IMG/VR virus record: IMGVR_UViG_3300005253_000443 | Coordinates: 1-45,195 of that record | Source of the DNA: a virus | Length of the DNA stretch: 45,195 nt | Reading direction: 5' to 3' (one strand) | Shown: piece by piece, positions 1,102-45,071 of the stretch | Layout of the letters: each line of letters starts with the position of its first letter | Position numbering within the stretch: position 1 is the stretch's first letter | Notes under the pieces: generated by a model | What the model was told of the DNA's origin: nothing | Databases searched by the model: none | The model's input: only the letters and a program-made list of their open reading frames with translations | Program-made: the position numbers and the translations under genes

Positions 1102-1120
1102 TTTTCACATAATGGTTATA

Positions 1121-1154
1121 GGGGAGCGGGTCGTAAGGTTCGCTCCCTTTTTTA
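1121..1154 (+). terminator. Rho-independent terminator
   Basis: GGGAGCG (1122-1128) pairs with CGCTCCC (1141-1147) around a 12-base loop and is followed by a run of six to seven T. It would end the transcript carrying the structured RNA and the 619-1101 gene. The SD of the next gene begins immediately after the T run. Confidence 0.8.
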
Positions 1155-1425: not shown

Positions 1426-1638
1426 ATGAGACCAGAACAAGGACCCTATTACAGACAAGTATTTCTACTTAAGAATCTAAAAGCTCGAATGATAATGAGC
1501 GATCGTACTGGTTTATATTCTCTGAAAGGGGATATAACCGAACAGGAAATGGACGCCTTTAGAATAGCTTTACGTCTTCTTGAACAATTTAATTTAGGCG
1601 ATATTGTTTCAGCTGATTCAGTAGACATACAAAAGTAA
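1426..1638 (+). CDS. Small hypothetical protein before hammerhead 1
   Basis: A 70-aa protein without recognised domain. ATG 1426 is preferred over ATG 1414 because AAAGGA (1409-1413) is at a usable distance from it. The gene starts one base after the upstream stop. Its TAA stop touches the first strand of hammerhead ribozyme 1 (stem II starts at 1638), so self-cleavage at 1671/1672 would leave this mRNA with a short 3' tail ending in a stable stem. Confidence 0.55.
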   Translation: MRPEQGPYYRQVFLLKNLKARMIMSDRTGLYSLKGDITEQEMDAFRIALRLLEQFNLGDIVSADSVDIQK

Positions 1639-1700
1639 GACCGAAACCAGAATCCCTTAAGGGTTCTGGTCACCGATTGTTAATCGGTCTGATGAGGTTT
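1638..1700 (+). ncRNA. Type II hammerhead ribozyme 1
   Basis: All invariant core elements are present and correctly ordered. Stem II 5' part AGACC (1638-1642) pairs with GGTTT (1696-1700, one G-U). The GAAA core is at 1643-1646. Stem III is CCAGAA/TTCTGG (1647-1652/1664-1669), extended by CCC/GGG. The cleavage triplet GTC is 1669-1671. Stem I is ACCGATT/AATCGGT (1672-1678/1682-1688). The CTGATGA core is 1689-1695. Stem II is the open stem, hence type II. Cleavage after C1671 would give a downstream mRNA with a 5'-OH and a 55-nt leader before ATG 1727. Confidence 0.9.
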
Positions 1701-1726
1701 AAAAAAATTATTGGGAGGTAAAGGAA

Positions 1727-1921
1727 ATGATGCTTCACATTGTTACAAAAGATTCTGAGTTAATTGAAACAATCTCTATAGATGATTGTGATTTAGATTC
1801 ATCTATTGATTTTGGTTCTCTTTGTCTTGACATTAAAGAAGCAATTAAAAGAGGAAGACGAATAGAAAAAGATCAAGAGGAGGTTCAAAATGGCGATGAG
1901 CGATCATTATACAAAAGTTAA
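1727..1921 (+). CDS. Small acidic hypothetical protein after hammerhead 1
   Basis: A 64-aa protein, acidic in residues 8-30 and basic/charged at the C-terminus; no domain recognised. The ribosome site GGGAGGTAAAGG lies just before the ATG. The block ATTATTGG(G)AGGTAA is shared with the starts at 2182 and 2313. The gene lies 55 nt downstream of the predicted hammerhead cut and its 3' end overlaps the next gene by 32 bases. Confidence 0.55.
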   Translation: MMLHIVTKDSELIETISIDDCDLDSSIDFGSLCLDIKEAIKRGRRIEKDQEEVQNGDERSLYKS

Positions 1922-2084
1922 AGTCAGTGTTTTACCCAAATGTGGTATTTGCAAAAAGCGTAAAGCCAAATATGATGGTAAAACTACTGGTTCATGGGCC
2001 TATATGTGTCAAGAATGTTTTGACATATACGGACTTGGCTTAGGTTTAGGTCTTGGTCAAGAATTAATTTTAAAAGATACTTAA
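1890..2084 (+). CDS. Zinc-ribbon protein with Gly-Leu repeat
   Basis: A 64-aa protein with two Cys pairs (CGIC at about residues 18-21 and CQEC at about 42-45) that would bind one zinc, followed by a GLGLGLGLG run before the C-terminus. Small proteins with this layout, CxxC then a WAYMC element and a Gly/Leu tail, recur in phages; their role is not known. GAGGAGG (1876-1882) supports ATG 1890. The 5' end overlaps the previous gene in another frame. It is followed directly by hammerhead 2. Confidence 0.75.
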   Translation: MAMSDHYTKVKVSVLPKCGICKKRKAKYDGKTTGSWAYMCQECFDIYGLGLGLGLGQELILKDT

Positions 2085-2093
2085 TCTATTACG

Positions 2094-2155
2094 AGATCGA
2101 AACGCTCTTATTAATTTAAGAGCGTCTATGAGTGTTACTCATACTGATGAGGTCT
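2094..2155 (+). ncRNA. Type II hammerhead ribozyme 2
   Basis: The complete core is present. Stem II AGATC (2094-2098) pairs with GGTCT (2151-2155, one G-U). The GAAA core is 2099-2102. Stem III is CGCTCTT/AAGAGCG (2103-2109/2118-2124), perfect. The U of the cleavage triplet is 2125 and cleavage falls after C2126. Stem I is TATGAG/CTCATA (2127-2132/2138-2143). The CTGATGA core is 2144-2150. Stem sequences differ from hammerhead 1 while pairing is kept, as expected for a selected RNA structure. The leader left on the downstream mRNA is again 55 nt (2127 to ATG 2182). Confidence 0.9.
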
Positions 2156-2181
2156 GAAAAAAATTATTGGAGGTAAGGGAA

Positions 2182-2316
2182 ATGGAAACAAAGAGTTATC
2201 CTGTTCATTGTTTAAAATGCGGTAATAAAACTTATCGCAAGGTTGGTCCTTTAGGTTGCTGTAATAAGTGTACTGGACTACTCGTCTGGACATTTATTGG
2301 AGGTAAAGGAAAATGA
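2182..2316 (+). CDS. 44-aa zinc-ribbon microprotein
   Basis: A 44-aa protein with HCLKC near residues 9-13 and CCNKC near 26-30, a compact four-cysteine zinc ribbon. ATTATTGGAGGTAAGGGAA precedes its ATG. The stop TGA overlaps the next ATG (ATGA, 2313-2316), and the end of this gene encodes the SD of the next one, so the two are translationally coupled. It is the second gene placed 55 nt after a hammerhead cut. Function unknown. Confidence 0.7.
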   Translation: METKSYPVHCLKCGNKTYRKVGPLGCCNKCTGLLVWTFIGGKGK

Positions 2317-2519: not shown

Positions 2520-2528
2520 AAGAAATTG

Positions 2529-2562
2529 AGACCTTGAATCACATGATTCAGGGTCTTTTTTT
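2529..2562 (+). terminator. Rho-independent terminator ending the early cluster
   Basis: AGACCTTGAATC and GATTCAGGGTCT (2529-2540 / 2545-2556, one G-U) form a long stem and are followed by seven T. It separates the hammerhead-bearing operon from the virion operon. Confidence 0.85.
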
Positions 2563-25905: not shown

Positions 25906-26508
25906 TTATAGACCTATTCTCCATGATTCATCTCCTTTCTTCCATTTGTTAGAAGGACATCCAGATATTCCTTTTTTAAAATTTTTTAAATAGGATAATA
26001 ATTCCTCTATTTGATCTTCATTGAATTTAGAAGTGAATCCTCTTCCGACTCTTAAAAACTTGAATGGATTAACAATCATATTCATTCCAAAATAATAAAA
26101 ATTTATGGAAATTAAAACGTTTATCCCACTAAGATCCCTAATCTTATTTTTCATATTTGTAGATCCGTCTTTATGACTATGTCTTGAAAATAGTTGAATG
26201 TGTCCTTCATTAATTTTAGGATAAATATTGTCCCCTTTTCTATAAATATCTTTTTTTGCATTCATAATAGGTCTTTTAATTTTGAATCTTTCATCATTAT
26301 AATAATCTTCAAAAGTCATTACTTCTTTTACCTTCATACAATATATAATTTTATTTTCTTCTTTACTGGGACTTAGACCAATTACCCAATCGCCAATATT
26401 TGCTTTTCTTCTTATTGCAGGTTTACAATTTGCAAGTGTGAGATATTTCCAGAAAGGATTCGGAGCGAATCCTGCATCCCTTACCTCTATATGACAAAAT
26501 AATAACAT
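25906..26508 (-). CDS. Nmad2-type nucleotide modification associated protein
   Basis: A 200-aa protein with the hallmark pattern of nucleotide modification associated domain 2: RDAGFAPNPFWKYLTLANCK, then IRRKANIGDWVIGLS, YCMKVKEVMTFEDYYNDERF and PIMNAK with GDNIY. This family occurs near DNA base-modification genes; its biochemical role is not established. Its location directly before the DNA polymerase gene is in keeping with a role tied to modified DNA. AAAAGGAGATAAC precedes the ATG. Confidence 0.8.
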   Translation of the reverse strand: MLLFCHIEVRDAGFAPNPFWKYLTLANCKPAIRRKANIGDWVIGLSPSKEENKIIYCMKVKEVMTFEDYYNDERFKIKRPIMNAKKDIYRKGDNIYPKINEGHIQLFSRHSHKDGSTNMKNKIRDLSGINVLISINFYYFGMNMIVNPFKFLRVGRGFTSKFNEDQIEELLSYLKNFKKGISGCPSNKWKKGDESWRIGL

Positions 26509-36836: not shown

Positions 36837-37844
36837 TTAAATCATCTCTTCTGATAATAAAACGTTAGTTTTTTCTAATGGTCTTCTTATTGATGAAATC
36901 ATTATACCCGCCTTTTTAGCGCTTATAATTCCGGCAACTTCCAGATAATTTTTAGCAATTATAAAACTGTTTGGCATTTTATCTTTGAGAACTGTTCTAT
37001 TTTCTTCAACTGCAATTACAGGAATATTTGCTTTTATACAAGCTACATGAGGTCTACCGAACACGTTCACAGGTGTGACCAAAAAATCTATATCGGTATT
37101 CCAATAAGCATCGTTTTTCAAAGAAATTCTTGGAGCTACGTGTCCTCCCTTCAGACAGCAATGCAGATAACACATTGATACCATCTCTGCCGCTTTCCTT
37201 GGATCAATTATTTCATTAAACGTTTTAAATACTTCACTGTTTTCAACCGGCGCATGAATCACCGGCTTGTTCAGTTTTTCAGACATCAACTTACTTAATT
37301 TCGCCTCTACTCCACCCCATATATTTGTTCCCCCATCTTTAGTTAAATAATCCTTAATCTCCTCATCATTAGCTTCGATTGGTGTATTAACTACTAATAC
37401 ATCAAAATCATATTGAACTACTTGTTCTATTGCTTCATCAAGATTATATATATCACCTGATGCTTTTTTGTCGATCATAGACGCAACCATTCTTAAAGGA
37501 ATTTTTAGTTCCACTATTTCGATGTCTGCTCCTATTGTTGCTCGTGCTCCAGAAACAGCGTTAATTGTTTCAGACTTTACTGGACTGTTTACAGCCAGTA
37601 GGATTTTATTGCTGTAGACTTCCTCAAGACCAATTTGACCTTCGAGGAACCTGTCGAGAATGGAACCCTCTACATACAACATATTTACCGTCATTTCATT
37701 TATGTCAGAAGCATTAACTACATTAGGATGTACAAATAATACATCACAAAGAGAAGCTATCAACTTGGCTACTGGAGTCGCATCACCTGCATGACCTCCT
37801 ATTTCTGCACCTATACCCGTTGGAACTATGAAGACAACATTCAT
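36837..37844 (-). CDS. DUF3326-like protein
   Basis: A 335-aa protein. The N-terminus (FIVPTGIGAEIGGHAGDATP, then VAKLIASLCDVLFVHPNVVN, and MLYVEGSILDRFLEGQIGL) is the signature of DUF3326, a family of unknown function known mainly from cyanobacteria, plants and archaea. Later conserved-looking parts are GGTNIWGGVEAKLSKL, PVIHAPVENSE and GGHVAPRIS. I chose ATG 37844 because GGAG lies six bases before it and homologues start with this stretch. It is coupled as TGATG to the SpeD-like gene. A nucleotide- or metabolite-binding enzyme is likely from the Gly-rich start, but no reaction is known. Confidence 0.75.
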   Translation of the reverse strand: MNVVFIVPTGIGAEIGGHAGDATPVAKLIASLCDVLFVHPNVVNASDINEMTVNMLYVEGSILDRFLEGQIGLEEVYSNKILLAVNSPVKSETINAVSGARATIGADIEIVELKIPLRMVASMIDKKASGDIYNLDEAIEQVVQYDFDVLVVNTPIEANDEEIKDYLTKDGGTNIWGGVEAKLSKLMSEKLNKPVIHAPVENSEVFKTFNEIIDPRKAAEMVSMCYLHCCLKGGHVAPRISLKNDAYWNTDIDFLVTPVNVFGRPHVACIKANIPVIAVEENRTVLKDKMPNSFIIAKNYLEVAGIISAKKAGIMISSIRRPLEKTNVLLSEEMI

Positions 37845-38215
37845 CATATTCTCCATATTGATTCTATATGTACAATTCTTCCTCCAAACCATTCGCGAGA
37901 AAACTCGGCCGCAATATCAGAGTCAAAATCTTTACATGAGAAGATGTTGATAAATACTTTCTGTAAAAGGCTTAATGTGTGAATTGTAATATTACTTGTC
38001 AGCATAAATTGAATTGCAGATGTTCCTTTTAAATGTGGTTCAGTTTGTTGTTCTTCTTTTGAAACTCCTACATCATCCCAGAAATATCGTTCACATTTCT
38101 GCATCTTGATTATCCCACATATTCTTTCAAAATATGCATCCAGACTTTTTCGGTTGAACGTAAACGCATAACAATCGTGTAAGTCTACAATCAATTCTTT
38201 CCCATAGCTATCCAT
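37844..38215 (-). CDS. SpeD-like (AdoMet decarboxylase family) protein
   Basis: A 123-aa protein matching the short bacterial AdoMet decarboxylase proenzyme in length and pattern. Ser74 in LTSNITIHT is where the pyruvoyl-forming Ser is expected, His79 the processing His and Cys94 in FSCKDFD the catalytic Cys. The usual Glu and His flanking the Ser are Thr and Asn here, as in other phage SpeD-like proteins. It may make decarboxylated AdoMet for polyamines, or it may have switched to another amino acid. AAGGAGAGAAA precedes the ATG. It is translationally coupled to the DUF3326 gene. Confidence 0.75.
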   Translation of the reverse strand: MDSYGKELIVDLHDCYAFTFNRKSLDAYFERICGIIKMQKCERYFWDDVGVSKEEQQTEPHLKGTSAIQFMLTSNITIHTLSLLQKVFINIFSCKDFDSDIAAEFSREWFGGRIVHIESIWRI

Positions 38216-41040: not shown

Positions 41041-41961
41041 TTAGAAACCTCCGTTATACCTTCGTTTTTTACTTCCTCCACGTTCATACTTATCAAATTC
41101 ACAAAGCTGATGTTGCACGTCCCTTAAGTCAAGATGTTGAAAATAATAAAAGAATGGATCGACCTTAATGTTTTCAACCATTCTCTGTGTTTCTTTAATC
41201 CATCTACGTATGTCAGAACTTACGAATCTCTTCCATTCCACTAATAGTTCTTTTGTCAATTCTATAGAATTAGGAATTTTGTCATTAGAAGCTTTCCCAT
41301 ACAATAAGCGATTCATTCCTCGTACAGCTCCAAGTCCTAATTGCGTCCAAGTAGATTTATCCCATGCCTTCTTTAAATATCTTGTACTATAGGTGAAATC
41401 AACAGTATATTGATAAGCCATAAATGGCCCTATTCCTGGAAGATCTATTAAGAGATAATATAGTTTTTCCATCGTATTGGTGCATCGAATAATCGTATCG
41501 GGTTGTGTACTCATTTTCTTTCTAATCTCAAATAAAAGGTTAAATAGATAAGAGACCTTATCAGTCCAACCATAAGAATCTGTTTTACTATTCACGATAA
41601 ATGCATTAGTAAATATTTTCTCCTTATTTTGTTGCATTTTTCTAAGTATGTTGTAAGCTTCGGTTTGATTTCCTATTAAACATTTCGCATCTTTCAGTTT
41701 CTGCAGTGTCTCTATTTTACTAATATAACGGCACATTATAATCGTTTTCCATAATTCCTGATTGTCCTCGTTTGGTTCTATTGCGTTCCTAATTATCCAT
41801 TCACTCGTCTTGTCAAGAAAACGGAATACATTACAGAAACGGTAAAATCGTAAAATACGATCTTTAGTCCACGGCTTAGGAACGCCCGCCTTTTTCAGGA
41901 CATAGATTTGATGACGTTTAAAAGCAAGCTCGCAGAATTCTCTAATTCGTTCTTTATCCAT
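41041..41961 (-). CDS. 5-hmdU kinase-helical / aGPT-pyrophosphorylase-like protein
   Basis: A 306-aa protein. The N-terminus (KRHQIYVLKKAGVPKPWTKD, then RFYRFCNVFRFLDKTSEWII, residues 15-57) is the pattern of the helical domain of 5-hmdU DNA kinases and alpha-glutamyl/putrescinyl-thymine pyrophosphorylase relatives. Residues 173-187 (DLPGIGPFMAYQYTV) form a helix-hairpin-helix as in DNA glycosylases, and GAVRGMNRLLYG (211-222) is also family-like. Members act on 5-hydroxymethylated bases already in DNA to build hypermodified bases. The exact chemistry here is unknown, and no separate kinase is recognised. Confidence 0.7.
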   Translation of the reverse strand: MDKERIREFCELAFKRHQIYVLKKAGVPKPWTKDRILRFYRFCNVFRFLDKTSEWIIRNAIEPNEDNQELWKTIIMCRYISKIETLQKLKDAKCLIGNQTEAYNILRKMQQNKEKIFTNAFIVNSKTDSYGWTDKVSYLFNLLFEIRKKMSTQPDTIIRCTNTMEKLYYLLIDLPGIGPFMAYQYTVDFTYSTRYLKKAWDKSTWTQLGLGAVRGMNRLLYGKASNDKIPNSIELTKELLVEWKRFVSSDIRRWIKETQRMVENIKVDPFFYYFQHLDLRDVQHQLCEFDKYERGGSKKRRYNGGF

Positions 41962-42160
41962 TCAGTTTCCTTTTTCTTCTCTGCTTTTTTGTGAAATGAC
42001 CTCGTGTACGGGTAGGATTTGATTCAATCCAATACATTCGTGTTAAGGTCATACCGCACTTTTTGCATTGACCTTGTGAAAATCCCCGCTTAAGTTTTAC
42101 AGTATTGGTATCGATTTCATGTACACAGATTTTGCCTATTCTATATTGGGATTCTTCCAT
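41954..42160 (-). CDS. Small zinc-finger-like basic protein
   Basis: A 68-aa protein with C, H, then CKKC (one putative zinc site, residues about 11-36) and a strongly basic C-terminus (GHFTKKQRRKRKLNG). ATG 42160 follows GGAG; it overlaps the 3' end of the glycosyltransferase gene and the next gene's start. It could bind nucleic acid as a partner of the modification enzymes on both sides. Confidence 0.6.
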   Translation of the reverse strand: MEESQYRIGKICVHEIDTNTVKLKRGFSQGQCKKCGMTLTRMYWIESNPTRTRGHFTKKQRRKRKLNG

Positions 42161-42948
42161 GTTTTTCTCCATGCTATGCGAACATTAATTCTTGATTCTT
42201 GCCAAGTGCCTGTTTCTTTTTGATATAAAGTAACAAGATCAGGAAACTTTTTGTAAAGACCAACTGCTGATTTAGATTGATTCTCCGCTGTCCTCATTTC
42301 CTTACAACCTCCAGAAGTTTGTGACCTATCATCTCGACAATAAGTATTCAAACAAAGATTCTTATGCCCGGCCTGAAGTAGGCTCAGTATAAAGTAGTAG
42401 TCAGTCATGAATGGAAAACCAGCATCACTGAATCGTATTTTACTGGTTTTGATGATGGGCATGTACAAACAGTAAACCTGAATGATGCGAGTATTAATGT
42501 CGTAGGACTTTGTCTTTTCCATACTGAATTGTCGAGCCGTTATTCCTACTACAGGAAATTCTTGACTACAGAAATGTTCTAAGTCCGTAACCATTTTTGC
42601 AAAATCATTTCTTTCCGACCGCATTCGAATATAGGTTTTTGCATCAGGTTTACTATTCAATTGTAAATCATCATCAATCATTATAAGTTTCTCGACTTCG
42701 TGATCTCTTGCGTAATCTAAGATTGCGTCTCTTGTCTCTGGTATTCCCTTACTTTTGGGAATATGTAAAAGAATTAAGCTGCATCCATATTTTAAAGCTA
42801 CTTCATTATAATTATCTTTTTCTTCCTCACGTATAAATAAAAACGTGTCCCTCATACTAACAGGATCTATATAAGCTATTGTATGGTTATCATTATATTT
42901 CATCAGACGGTTCGCTCTCCTGTAGGATGGGATTATAATCTTGCTCAT
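42136..42948 (-). CDS. GT-A glycosyltransferase, TET-associated type (putative DNA base glycosyltransferase)
   Basis: A 270-aa protein. IIIPSYRRANRLM at the start, KGIPETRDAILDYA, and MIDDDLQLNSK (D92-D94, the DxD sugar-nucleotide/metal site) fit GT-A-fold enzymes, specifically the group found with TET/JBP and base-modification genes in phages. A histidine and DD pair appear later (YCRDDRSQTSGG). It would attach a sugar to hydroxymethylated bases in DNA. AGGAGATGAT precedes the ATG. No TET/JBP dioxygenase is found, so the hydroxymethyl group probably comes from the hydroxymethylase at 28070-28951. Confidence 0.7.
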   Translation of the reverse strand: MSKIIIPSYRRANRLMKYNDNHTIAYIDPVSMRDTFLFIREEEKDNYNEVALKYGCSLILLHIPKSKGIPETRDAILDYARDHEVEKLIMIDDDLQLNSKPDAKTYIRMRSERNDFAKMVTDLEHFCSQEFPVVGITARQFSMEKTKSYDINTRIIQVYCLYMPIIKTSKIRFSDAGFPFMTDYYFILSLLQAGHKNLCLNTYCRDDRSQTSGGCKEMRTAENQSKSAVGLYKKFPDLVTLYQKETGTWQESRINVRIAWRKTWKNPNIE

Positions 42949-43705: not shown

Positions 43706-43820
43706 GGCTTTTTTATAAAAATCTTTATTAGTTACAGCTAATTAAGTTAATCTATATGGGTCCACCTATGTTAGTAAAAAAGCTTGCCGTATAGCCAATT
43801 ATAAAAACGCTTTAACTTTA

Positions 43821-43849
43821 TGTATATGTATACAGCGTATACACATACA
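43821..43849. repeat. Long dyad hairpin
   Basis: TGTATATGTATAC (43821-43833) and GTATACACATACA (43837-43849) are 13-bp arms with one mismatch around AGC. It is the first dyad of the control region. Confidence 0.75.
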
Positions 43850-43954
43850 CCGATGACATCCTTAAGGGGGGGAAGCACTGTCATTTTTATTAGTTGAGAC
43901 TAAGTAATTTAATTTGTTATAGTATAAGTAATTAAATGAATTCGTGTTTAACCT

Positions 43955-43996
43955 CCATGACAATCCTTGTATGTATATTATACATACGTGTCATGG
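43955..43996. repeat. Nested dyad (cruciform-like)
   Basis: CCATGACA (43955-43962) pairs with TGTCATGG (43989-43996), and inside GTATGTAT pairs with ATACATAC around a short loop. The outer and inner arms together give about 16 bp. Confidence 0.75.
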
Positions 43997-44162
43997 CGTT
44001 ATTTGTTGTGGTGTAAGTAATTATTTACTTTCTGTGACAATGTAGTCGGCGTTTTTTTCTGTAAAACACGAGGCATATTACGCTAATTAAAATAACTTTT
44101 ATGATCGCTTTTTGTATAATTATTTACAGTGTATATAAATAGCGTATTAAGAAAATACGTCC

Positions 44163-44187
44163 AAACCCTACACGAGGTATAGGGTTT
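44163..44187. other. Hairpin with short T run
   Basis: AAACCCT and AGGGTTT (44163-44169 / about 44180-44186) flank an 11-base loop and are followed by two to three T. A weak terminator in either direction, or part of the dyad-rich region. Confidence 0.4.
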
Positions 44188-44222
44188 TACCTACTTACTT
44201 ATAGTGTAAGTAATTAAAATAG

Positions 44223-44327
44223 TGTACAAGTCATTTGTACAATTAGTATGGTGATTATACTTTTGGTATAACGCTCTTTAATTACTTACAACATAAGTAA
44301 TTAAAACATGTACAAGCCATTTGTACA
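44223..44327. repeat. Pair of TGTACAA dyads
   Basis: TGTACAAGTCATTTGTACA (44223-44241) and TGTACAAGCCATTTGTACA (44309-44327) are 19-bp near-identical dyads (one base differs), each followed by ATTARTAT. A second site type for a protein different from the one that reads the 25-bp palindromes is likely. Confidence 0.75.
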
Positions 44328-44396
44328 ATTAATATAATGATGTCTTTAATTACTTACAATACAAGTAATTAAAACATAGTTATACCAAAAGTATAA
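44255..44396. repeat. Inverted pair of TTATACTTTTGGTATAA
   Basis: TTATACTTTTGGTATAA (44255-44271) and its exact reverse complement TTATACCAAAAGTATAA (44380-44396) flank two iterons and one TGTACAA dyad. They could form a 17-bp stem across 108 bases or be two oppositely oriented sites. Confidence 0.8.
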
Positions 44397-44431
44397 TAAT
44401 TGGTATTTTTACTCCAAATAAAAAAAGCACT

Positions 44432-44528
44432 GACTACGCTGACTACAACGACTACAGGTTTTTAATTTGTTATGGTATAAGTAATTAAAAAATTTATGCG
44501 TAGTCAAATCTGTGACAGCGTAGTCAAA
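44432..44528. repeat. GACTAC short repeats and inverted GTAGTC copies
   Basis: GACTAC occurs three times with 9-bp period (44432, 44441, 44450). GCGTAGTCAAA, its inverted form, occurs at 44498-44508 and 44518-44528. They flank the iteron at 44463. Confidence 0.75.
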
Positions 44529-44684
44529 TGTGCTCTAAGGGTACTATAAAAGTAGTATAATTACTTACAGTATAAGCAATTAGCTACTTTGAATTTAAAA
44601 TAAACAAGGTTTAAAAACAAAGTAAAATCATATTCCGTAATACCCTTCCTAATCTTATTTTATCTTTACCATTCAAGACTGTAT

Positions 44685-44762
44685 TGTACCCTTATAGGGG
44701 GAAATAAAAACAATATAATTACTTACAACATAAGTAATTAGCCACCTTGTACCCTTATAGGA
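44685..44762. repeat. Direct repeat TTGTACCCTTATAGG
   Basis: The 15-mer occurs at 44685-44699 and 44748-44762, with one iteron between. The second copy runs into the very strong SD of the leader peptide at 44775. A partial inverted copy (AAGGGTAC) is at about 44537. Confidence 0.75.
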
Positions 44763-44774
44763 GGAGGAGGAATT

Positions 44775-44843
44775 ATGAATCATGTTACGAAACAAGTGTA
44801 TAGCAGTTTGCTGATTGTAATTTGTTGCTATACAAGCAATTAA
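44775..44843 (+). CDS. 22-aa leader peptide with very strong SD
   Basis: ATG 44775 is preceded by AGGAGGAGGAGG and opens a 22-codon frame ending at 44843 (MNHVTKQVYSSLLIVICCYT, then Ser-Asn). The peptide is hydrophobic in the middle. Its coding sequence contains the ninth palindrome and an inverted GTATAGCA/TGCTATAC pair, so translation could change RNA folding before the structured RNA. It could also be a chance SD in a repeat. Confidence 0.4.
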   Translation: MNHVTKQVYSSLLIVICCYTSN

Positions 44844-44965
44844 ATAGGGAATGATTTTTCTAACTTTTTTTGTATCATTCTTCCTCAATTTTTAAGTCTA
44901 TTTTTATAAATATGACCTATTTTGACTCAATCGTCATTTTTGTGTTTTTACAAGTTAAAAAAGTT

Positions 44966-44994
44966 TTGAACTGGGTCTGTACTATGTCTATACG
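44966..44994 (+). promoter_or_regulatory. Promoter candidate for the structured RNA
   Basis: TTGAAC (44966-44971), a 17-base spacer, and TATACG (44989-44994). Transcription would start near 45001 and run through the circular junction into the structured RNA and the small genes at 258 and 619. The -10 box is only moderately good. Confidence 0.5.
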
Positions 44995-45071
44995 ATCAAT
45001 ACAGACATTATTTTTTTGTTGTTTTTACTAATTTCGGTCCAGTTTCTGCATGTATATATACAGTAGATAAG

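Follow-up and report, generated by a model that had tools for sequence, protein, structure and literature searches.

The window, by which we mean the whole 45,195-nucleotide stretch analysed here, is a complete tailed-phage genome: the same 121 bases stand at both of its ends, and the genome junction is crossed at 100% identity by a second contig (L004). It encodes a terminase, tape measure, DNA polymerase, helicase and primase. Its links to cyanophages are distant (30.6% to Microcystis phage MACPNOA1, and 35.7% to the polymerase of Pseudanabaena phage Pan1), and it also encodes proteins resembling gp33 and gp34 of the cyanophage Pam3. Just upstream of the terminase genes lies a unit of six small ORFs bracketed by intrinsic terminators (Table 1). 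Two of the six products have the look of zinc ribbons, and a known function was found for none of the six. Two type II hammerhead ribozymes, HHR1 and HHR2, are located in intergenic positions within this one transcription unit; HHR1 begins on the last base of a TAA stop codon and HHR2 starts 9 nt past the stop codon of the ORF before it.

Table 1 Features of the ribozyme-bearing unit, in positions of the window
Feature	Position	Strand	Details	Basis
Intrinsic terminator	1120-1149	+	Upstream of operon; 13-bp stem then T run	
ORF, 89 aa	1155-1424	+		
ORF, 74 aa	1414-1638	+	Stop TAA 1636-1638, overlapping HHR1	
HHR1, type II hammerhead ribozyme	1638-1700	+	Stem II 1638-1642/1696-1700; GAAA 1643-1646; stem III 1646-1655/1661-1670; H17 = C1671; stem I 1672-1678/1682-1688; CUGAUGA 1689-1695; predicted cut C1671/A1672	Direct reading, folding, structural scan, pair counts
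HHR1 stem I hairpin	1672-1688	+	7 bp, GUU loop; predicted 5' end of downstream mRNA after cleavage	Folding
Leader repeat, copy 1	1675-1729	+	Stem I to ATG; SD GGGAGG 1713-1718	Repeat comparison
ORF, 64 aa	1727-1921	+	Start 55 nt past HHR1 cut	
ORF, 64 aa	1890-2084	+	Putative zinc-ribbon protein, phrog_23287	
HHR2, type II hammerhead ribozyme	2094-2155	+	Stem II 2094-2098/2151-2155; GAAA 2099-2102; stem III 2102-2110/2117-2125; H17 = C2126; stem I 2127-2133/2137-2143; core 2144-2150; predicted cut C2126/U2127	Direct reading, folding, structural scan, RF02276 25.2 bits
HHR2 stem I hairpin	2127-2143	+	7 bp, GUU loop; predicted 5' end after cleavage	Folding
Leader repeat, copy 2	2130-2184	+	SD GGAGG 2169-2173	Repeat comparison
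ORF, 44 aa	2182-2316	+	CxxC...CxxC putative zinc microprotein; start 55 nt past HHR2 cut	
ORF, 68 aa	2313-2519	+	SD block 2294-2313 ahead of start	
Intrinsic terminator	2528-2557	+	Operon end	

Several other regions of the genome stood out. Nmad2 nucleotide-modification and 5-hmdU DNA kinase domains and an HMC-type glucosyltransferase (25906-26508, 41041-41961 and 42136-42948, − strand) suggest that the phage DNA may be hypermodified, and a DUF3326 protein (Pfam PF11805, E = 5e-67) is encoded at 36837-37892 (− strand). Folding of positions 1-560 predicts a highly structured RNA (MFE z = −5.2) in which a long-range helix of about 24 bp (~176-204 with 505-535) surrounds a 74-aa ORF (258-482); this region had no match in Rfam and is possibly a large structured RNA or an intron-like element with an internal gene. 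Finally, 43800-45070 is AT-rich and nearly devoid of genes and carries many copies of a palindrome like AATTACTTACANTATAAGTAATTA, a possible replication origin or regulator-binding array.

Both hammerheads contain the CUGANGA and GAAA core, the A15.1-U16.1 pair and a base other than G at H17, and in folding three stems surround the junction, backed by compensatory change in pair counts. In the predicted fold, loops close stems I and III and stem II is open; with their NUH cleavage site, they thus share the features of type II hammerheads and of Rfam family RF02276. For each copy, the MFE and centroid structures are both the canonical hammerhead (z = −3.79 and −3.86, with 0 of 200 shuffles as stable). 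The two copies have identical cores, whereas at four of the six outer positions of stem I the bases have changed and all still pair, and their stem III sequences are unrelated with pairing kept in both. A structural descriptor (GAAA, stem III hairpin, UH, stem I hairpin, CUGANGA and stem II, in that order) run over both strands of the 45 kb matched these two sites only, both on the + strand, compared with 4 matches in total in 400 order-2 Markov strands of 45 kb (about 0.01 expected per strand). A chance origin of the two hammerheads is excluded. No type I or III hammerhead was found elsewhere in the genome. A sequence-only reading of this DNA had proposed two complete type II hammerheads, with intact cores, three stems, an open stem II and stems that differ in sequence yet still pair, and folding and the both-strand scan agree with it on each point. 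Neither copy matched Rfam at the gathering score: the type II model RF02276 (Hammerhead_II), whose cut-off is 37 bits, gave HHR2 only 25.2 bits (E = 1.4e-4) and did not report HHR1.

The same reading had counted 55 nt between each cut and the next start codon (ATG 1727 and ATG 2182) and had noted a repeated SD block. The count is exact in both copies (1672-1726 and 2127-2181). From loop I to the ATG, the two leaders form a diverged 55-nt direct repeat (78%), so the equal spacing in the window is due in part to common descent of the leaders. The SD block lies within this repeat, and a third, ribozyme-free copy precedes the last ORF of the unit.

To find related hammerheads, we used patterns derived from the window. 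No divergent relative covering the hammerhead locus itself was found: the second contig is identical, searches with the terminase and DNA polymerase returned the same virus (100%) or contigs lacking the pattern, a nucleotide search of a phage collection gave no match, and no match to the covariance model described below was reported in the distant relative MACPNOA1. A pattern fixed on a UGUUA loop found three true relatives (L007, L009 and L011), the remainder being chance matches, and its 14 matches in a scan of bacterial genomes included none with hammerhead structure. With the loop loosened (CGAAA..TC-N6-TNNNA-N6-CTGATGAGG), at least 66 viral loci matched. The middle three loop bases vary freely in this wider set, and UGUUA as a conserved tertiary motif was rejected. 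True and chance matches separate, as true ones form the whole hammerhead structure and most rejected ones have 1-6 of the 7 stem I pairs, generally without the other stems; in a few rejected matches (the L039 copies, L068 and L082), all seven pairs form and stem III is imperfect, and a covariance model recovered these afterwards.

That covariance model, R1, was built from 42 hammerheads found by pattern. Among the matches listed, it recovered 67 full-length copies in 39 viral contigs, including the window, and 16 of the 39 contigs carry two to five copies. Most copies have a 7-bp stem I with a 3-nt loop, a uniformity that is partly selected because the window-derived pattern fixes a 17-nt stem I. 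HHR1 and HHR2 score 56.3 and 60.9 bits, values that are circular because identical copies sat in the training alignment, and R1 E-values are rough. The stems covary strongly among relatives. In a set of five hammerheads, no stem I or II pair is broken and 16 cells show double changes, a level that 0 of 500 shuffles reached (24-39% paired when the pairing is slid), and across the 42, 99.1% of cells are paired with 238 double changes (29-39% on sliding). Unlike members of RF02276, these hammerheads mostly fall below its cut-off: in 12 loci tested, Rfam at the gathering threshold recovered 2 of 28 copies, the other 26 scoring, like the window pair, beneath it. The type II model at this score thus misses most short-loop copies, and phage ribozymes of this sort are under-counted.

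Two sets of relatives showed further features. In two related mosaic phages (L007:4694-4766 and L011:6035-6107), the hammerhead is shared as far as the cut site, and again across the core and stem II, but stem I has been exchanged almost wholly with pairing restored, and different genes follow, as though recombination had used the hammerhead as a joint. Another contig (L039:10786-13096) carries five hammerheads in 2.3 kb, each followed by a start codon within 50 nt; stem I is identical in all five, and two of the genes encode pentapeptide-repeat-like proteins.

The published type II consensus includes, in the majority of examples, a pseudoknot of at least 4 bp between loop I and the tail 3' of stem II, and this contact was important for fast cleavage in the type II examples tested (PMC3088659). 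The short-loop group departs from that consensus. Loop I is 3 nt in the window, with no tail pseudoknot above chance, and in the group the longest Watson-Crick match was 3 bp in 9 of 61 copies (7.8 expected with shuffled tails) and at least 4 bp in none; a loop I-tail pseudoknot is therefore not supported, and cleavage speed at physiological Mg is uncertain for this reason. What the group has instead is a U opening loop I, present in all copies and partly selected by the pattern, and an almost unvarying A next to a stem II of 4 bp, found directly 5' of that stem in 42 of 42 aligned copies at a position outside the search pattern. The A is not solely an effect of the stop codon, as it is mostly kept when the stop lies further upstream. 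It is reasonable to predict that the U and the A make a contact resembling the reverse Hoogsteen pair seen in hammerheads of types I and III (PMC6155905). We do not claim it as new, since PMC3088659 describes many hammerheads without a pseudoknot and refers to U/A-type contacts in its Figure S5.

The position of the hammerheads relative to genes is more constrained than chance would give. With ORFs called mechanically in loci that end at contig ends or flanks, 56 of 67 hammerheads start between −15 and +6 nt from the end of the upstream stop codon, compared with 10.6% of random positions in the same loci, and this stop codon often overlaps stem II. From the cut to the next SD-supported start, the median distance is 55 nt (interquartile range 49-63.5, n = 60). 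Neither stop-codon position nor start distance formed part of the search pattern. The window pair is typical on both counts (+1 and −9 nt relative to the stop codon; 55 nt from each cut to its start codon), and this phage is not special in its spacing, which equals the median over 60 cases. Each cut piece would hold one to two genes in the cases inspected; the genes downstream are mostly small and uncharacterised but include a transposase and an ATPase, and one contig looks Mu-like.

Tandem hammerheads in such settings have been described before. In Perreault et al. (2011; PMC3088659), prophages carry multiple hammerheads around single genes or short gene blocks, and the authors proposed that long phage transcripts are processed into shorter mRNAs. 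As in the window, the sets of Clostridium scindens, Azorhizobium caulinodans and Agrobacterium tumefaciens described there place several hammerheads on one polycistronic RNA, flanking single genes; all cut in vitro, and the A. tumefaciens set also cuts in E. coli. Genes in those sets include ardA, compared with the small uncharacterised proteins of the window, whose phage has distant cyanophage links, and the text passages covered here give no stop- or start-codon spacing. Such motifs were later noted to lie close together and to flank ORFs for small uncharacterised proteins (PMC6155905), and ribozymes were found to be enriched near other ribozymes and Mu-like phage genes, associations whose reason was still called unknown in 2023 (PMC10085705). 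Earlier papers thus already contain this kind of ribozyme, its tandem arrangement around small uncharacterised genes and the idea of transcript processing, and the sequence-only reading's view that a spaced tandem pair of mRNA processing sites for microprotein genes looks new does not hold.

We consider it likely that the two hammerheads in the window are intercistronic cutting sites that divide the RNA of one unit and place a terminal hairpin on both products of each cut. This best-supported reading draws on the structure and its chance controls, the covariation, the position between stop and start codons, the recurrence of multiple copies in contigs, the bracketing terminators and the published activity of natural tandem sets in vitro and in E. 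coli (PMC3088659). From what is observed in sequence, structure, covariation, codon position and recurrence, we infer that the hammerheads would share a transcript of about 1155-2560 and that each would cut its own RNA, while it is being made or shortly afterwards, in the space separating a stop codon from the following ribosome-binding site. Three pieces would result, carrying the genes at 1155-1638, 1727-2084 and 2182-2519. An upstream piece would end in the stem III hairpin plus one base bearing a 2',3'-cyclic phosphate, and a downstream piece would open with the stem I hairpin, its new 5' end bearing a 5'-OH and lying 55 nt ahead of the start codon. Bacterial mRNA decay runs through 5'-monophosphate-stimulated RNase E and 3' exonucleases, so both cut ends should be protective: they are likely poor substrates for 5'-monophosphate-dependent and 3' exonucleolytic decay, and cutting would likely uncouple the stabilities of cistrons that share one promoter. 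The sequence-only reading held that the phage seems to cut a polycistronic early mRNA, each new 5' end capped by a stem I hairpin. The predicted cutting is the better supported reading and the hairpin cap is correct from the structure; the word 'early' is not supported for a unit between two intrinsic terminators just upstream of the terminase genes.

An unlikely alternative is that cleavage acts as a translation switch, freeing or hiding the SD of the next gene. The short, constrained distance from the hammerheads to the downstream SD would suit such a role, and in folding the CUGAUGA released by cleavage could pair with a UUAUUGG adjoining the SD. Predicted accessibility of the SD-AUG region nonetheless hardly changes on cutting, with means of 0.45-0.46 uncut and 0.46 cut for HHR1 and 0.49-0.56 uncut and 0.48 cut for HHR2, and the cut leaders fold no better than shuffles (z = −0.67 and −0.52). 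An SD-release switch is not supported.

Somewhat less probable still is that cleavage is followed by ligation, with tandem hammerheads acting as interchangeable halves, so that pieces are re-joined to skip cistrons or form circular mRNAs, here by joining the flanks or circularising the 455-nt middle piece. Stem II stays alike between the tandem copies of a single phage, including where their stems I and III have drifted apart. Stem II is 66% identical among tandem copies in the same phage compared with 13% between phages, and cross-pairing is possible in 73% and 14%, respectively. Because stem II alone joins the halves, and matches while stems I and III change, the halves could be exchanged. 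The flank-joining chimera of the window is predicted at −5.4 kcal/mol, against −2.9 and −2.8 for the copies' own stem II, but the circle chimera is weak (−0.3), and a common stem II may simply reflect descent by duplication; the match could be descent or constraint. Retrozymes and viroid-like RNAs, in which an RNA segment is likewise bracketed by two direct hammerheads, yield unit-length circular RNAs of mobile elements. Unlike retrozymes (PMC4918200), the window segment belongs to an operon and codes for two small proteins, with no mobile element observed. Perreault et al. sought spliced or circular products and found none (PMC3088659). If re-joining did occur, the operon would be a self-editing transcript.

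That the two are inactive remnants, or mere terminator-like or processing hairpins resembling hammerheads, is very improbable: scores below the Rfam gathering cut-off and the absent pseudoknot would fit, but all core bases are intact in both copies and the core is kept in dozens of relatives, stems I and III have changed with compensation, and no U-tract follows the hairpins.

The closest known systems to the window pair are bacterial and prophage type II hammerheads, which often cluster around genes in phages (PMC3088659). As far as the main texts covered here show, what is new comprises the two members described here and, in a short-loop group that Rfam largely misses, the measured anchoring to stop codons together with the distance to the start. 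The role of tandem phage hammerheads has been in question since 2011. If selection favoured the cutting of mRNA between cistrons, a quantitative pattern like the measured stop/start layout would be expected, and this layout offers a direct test of that role.
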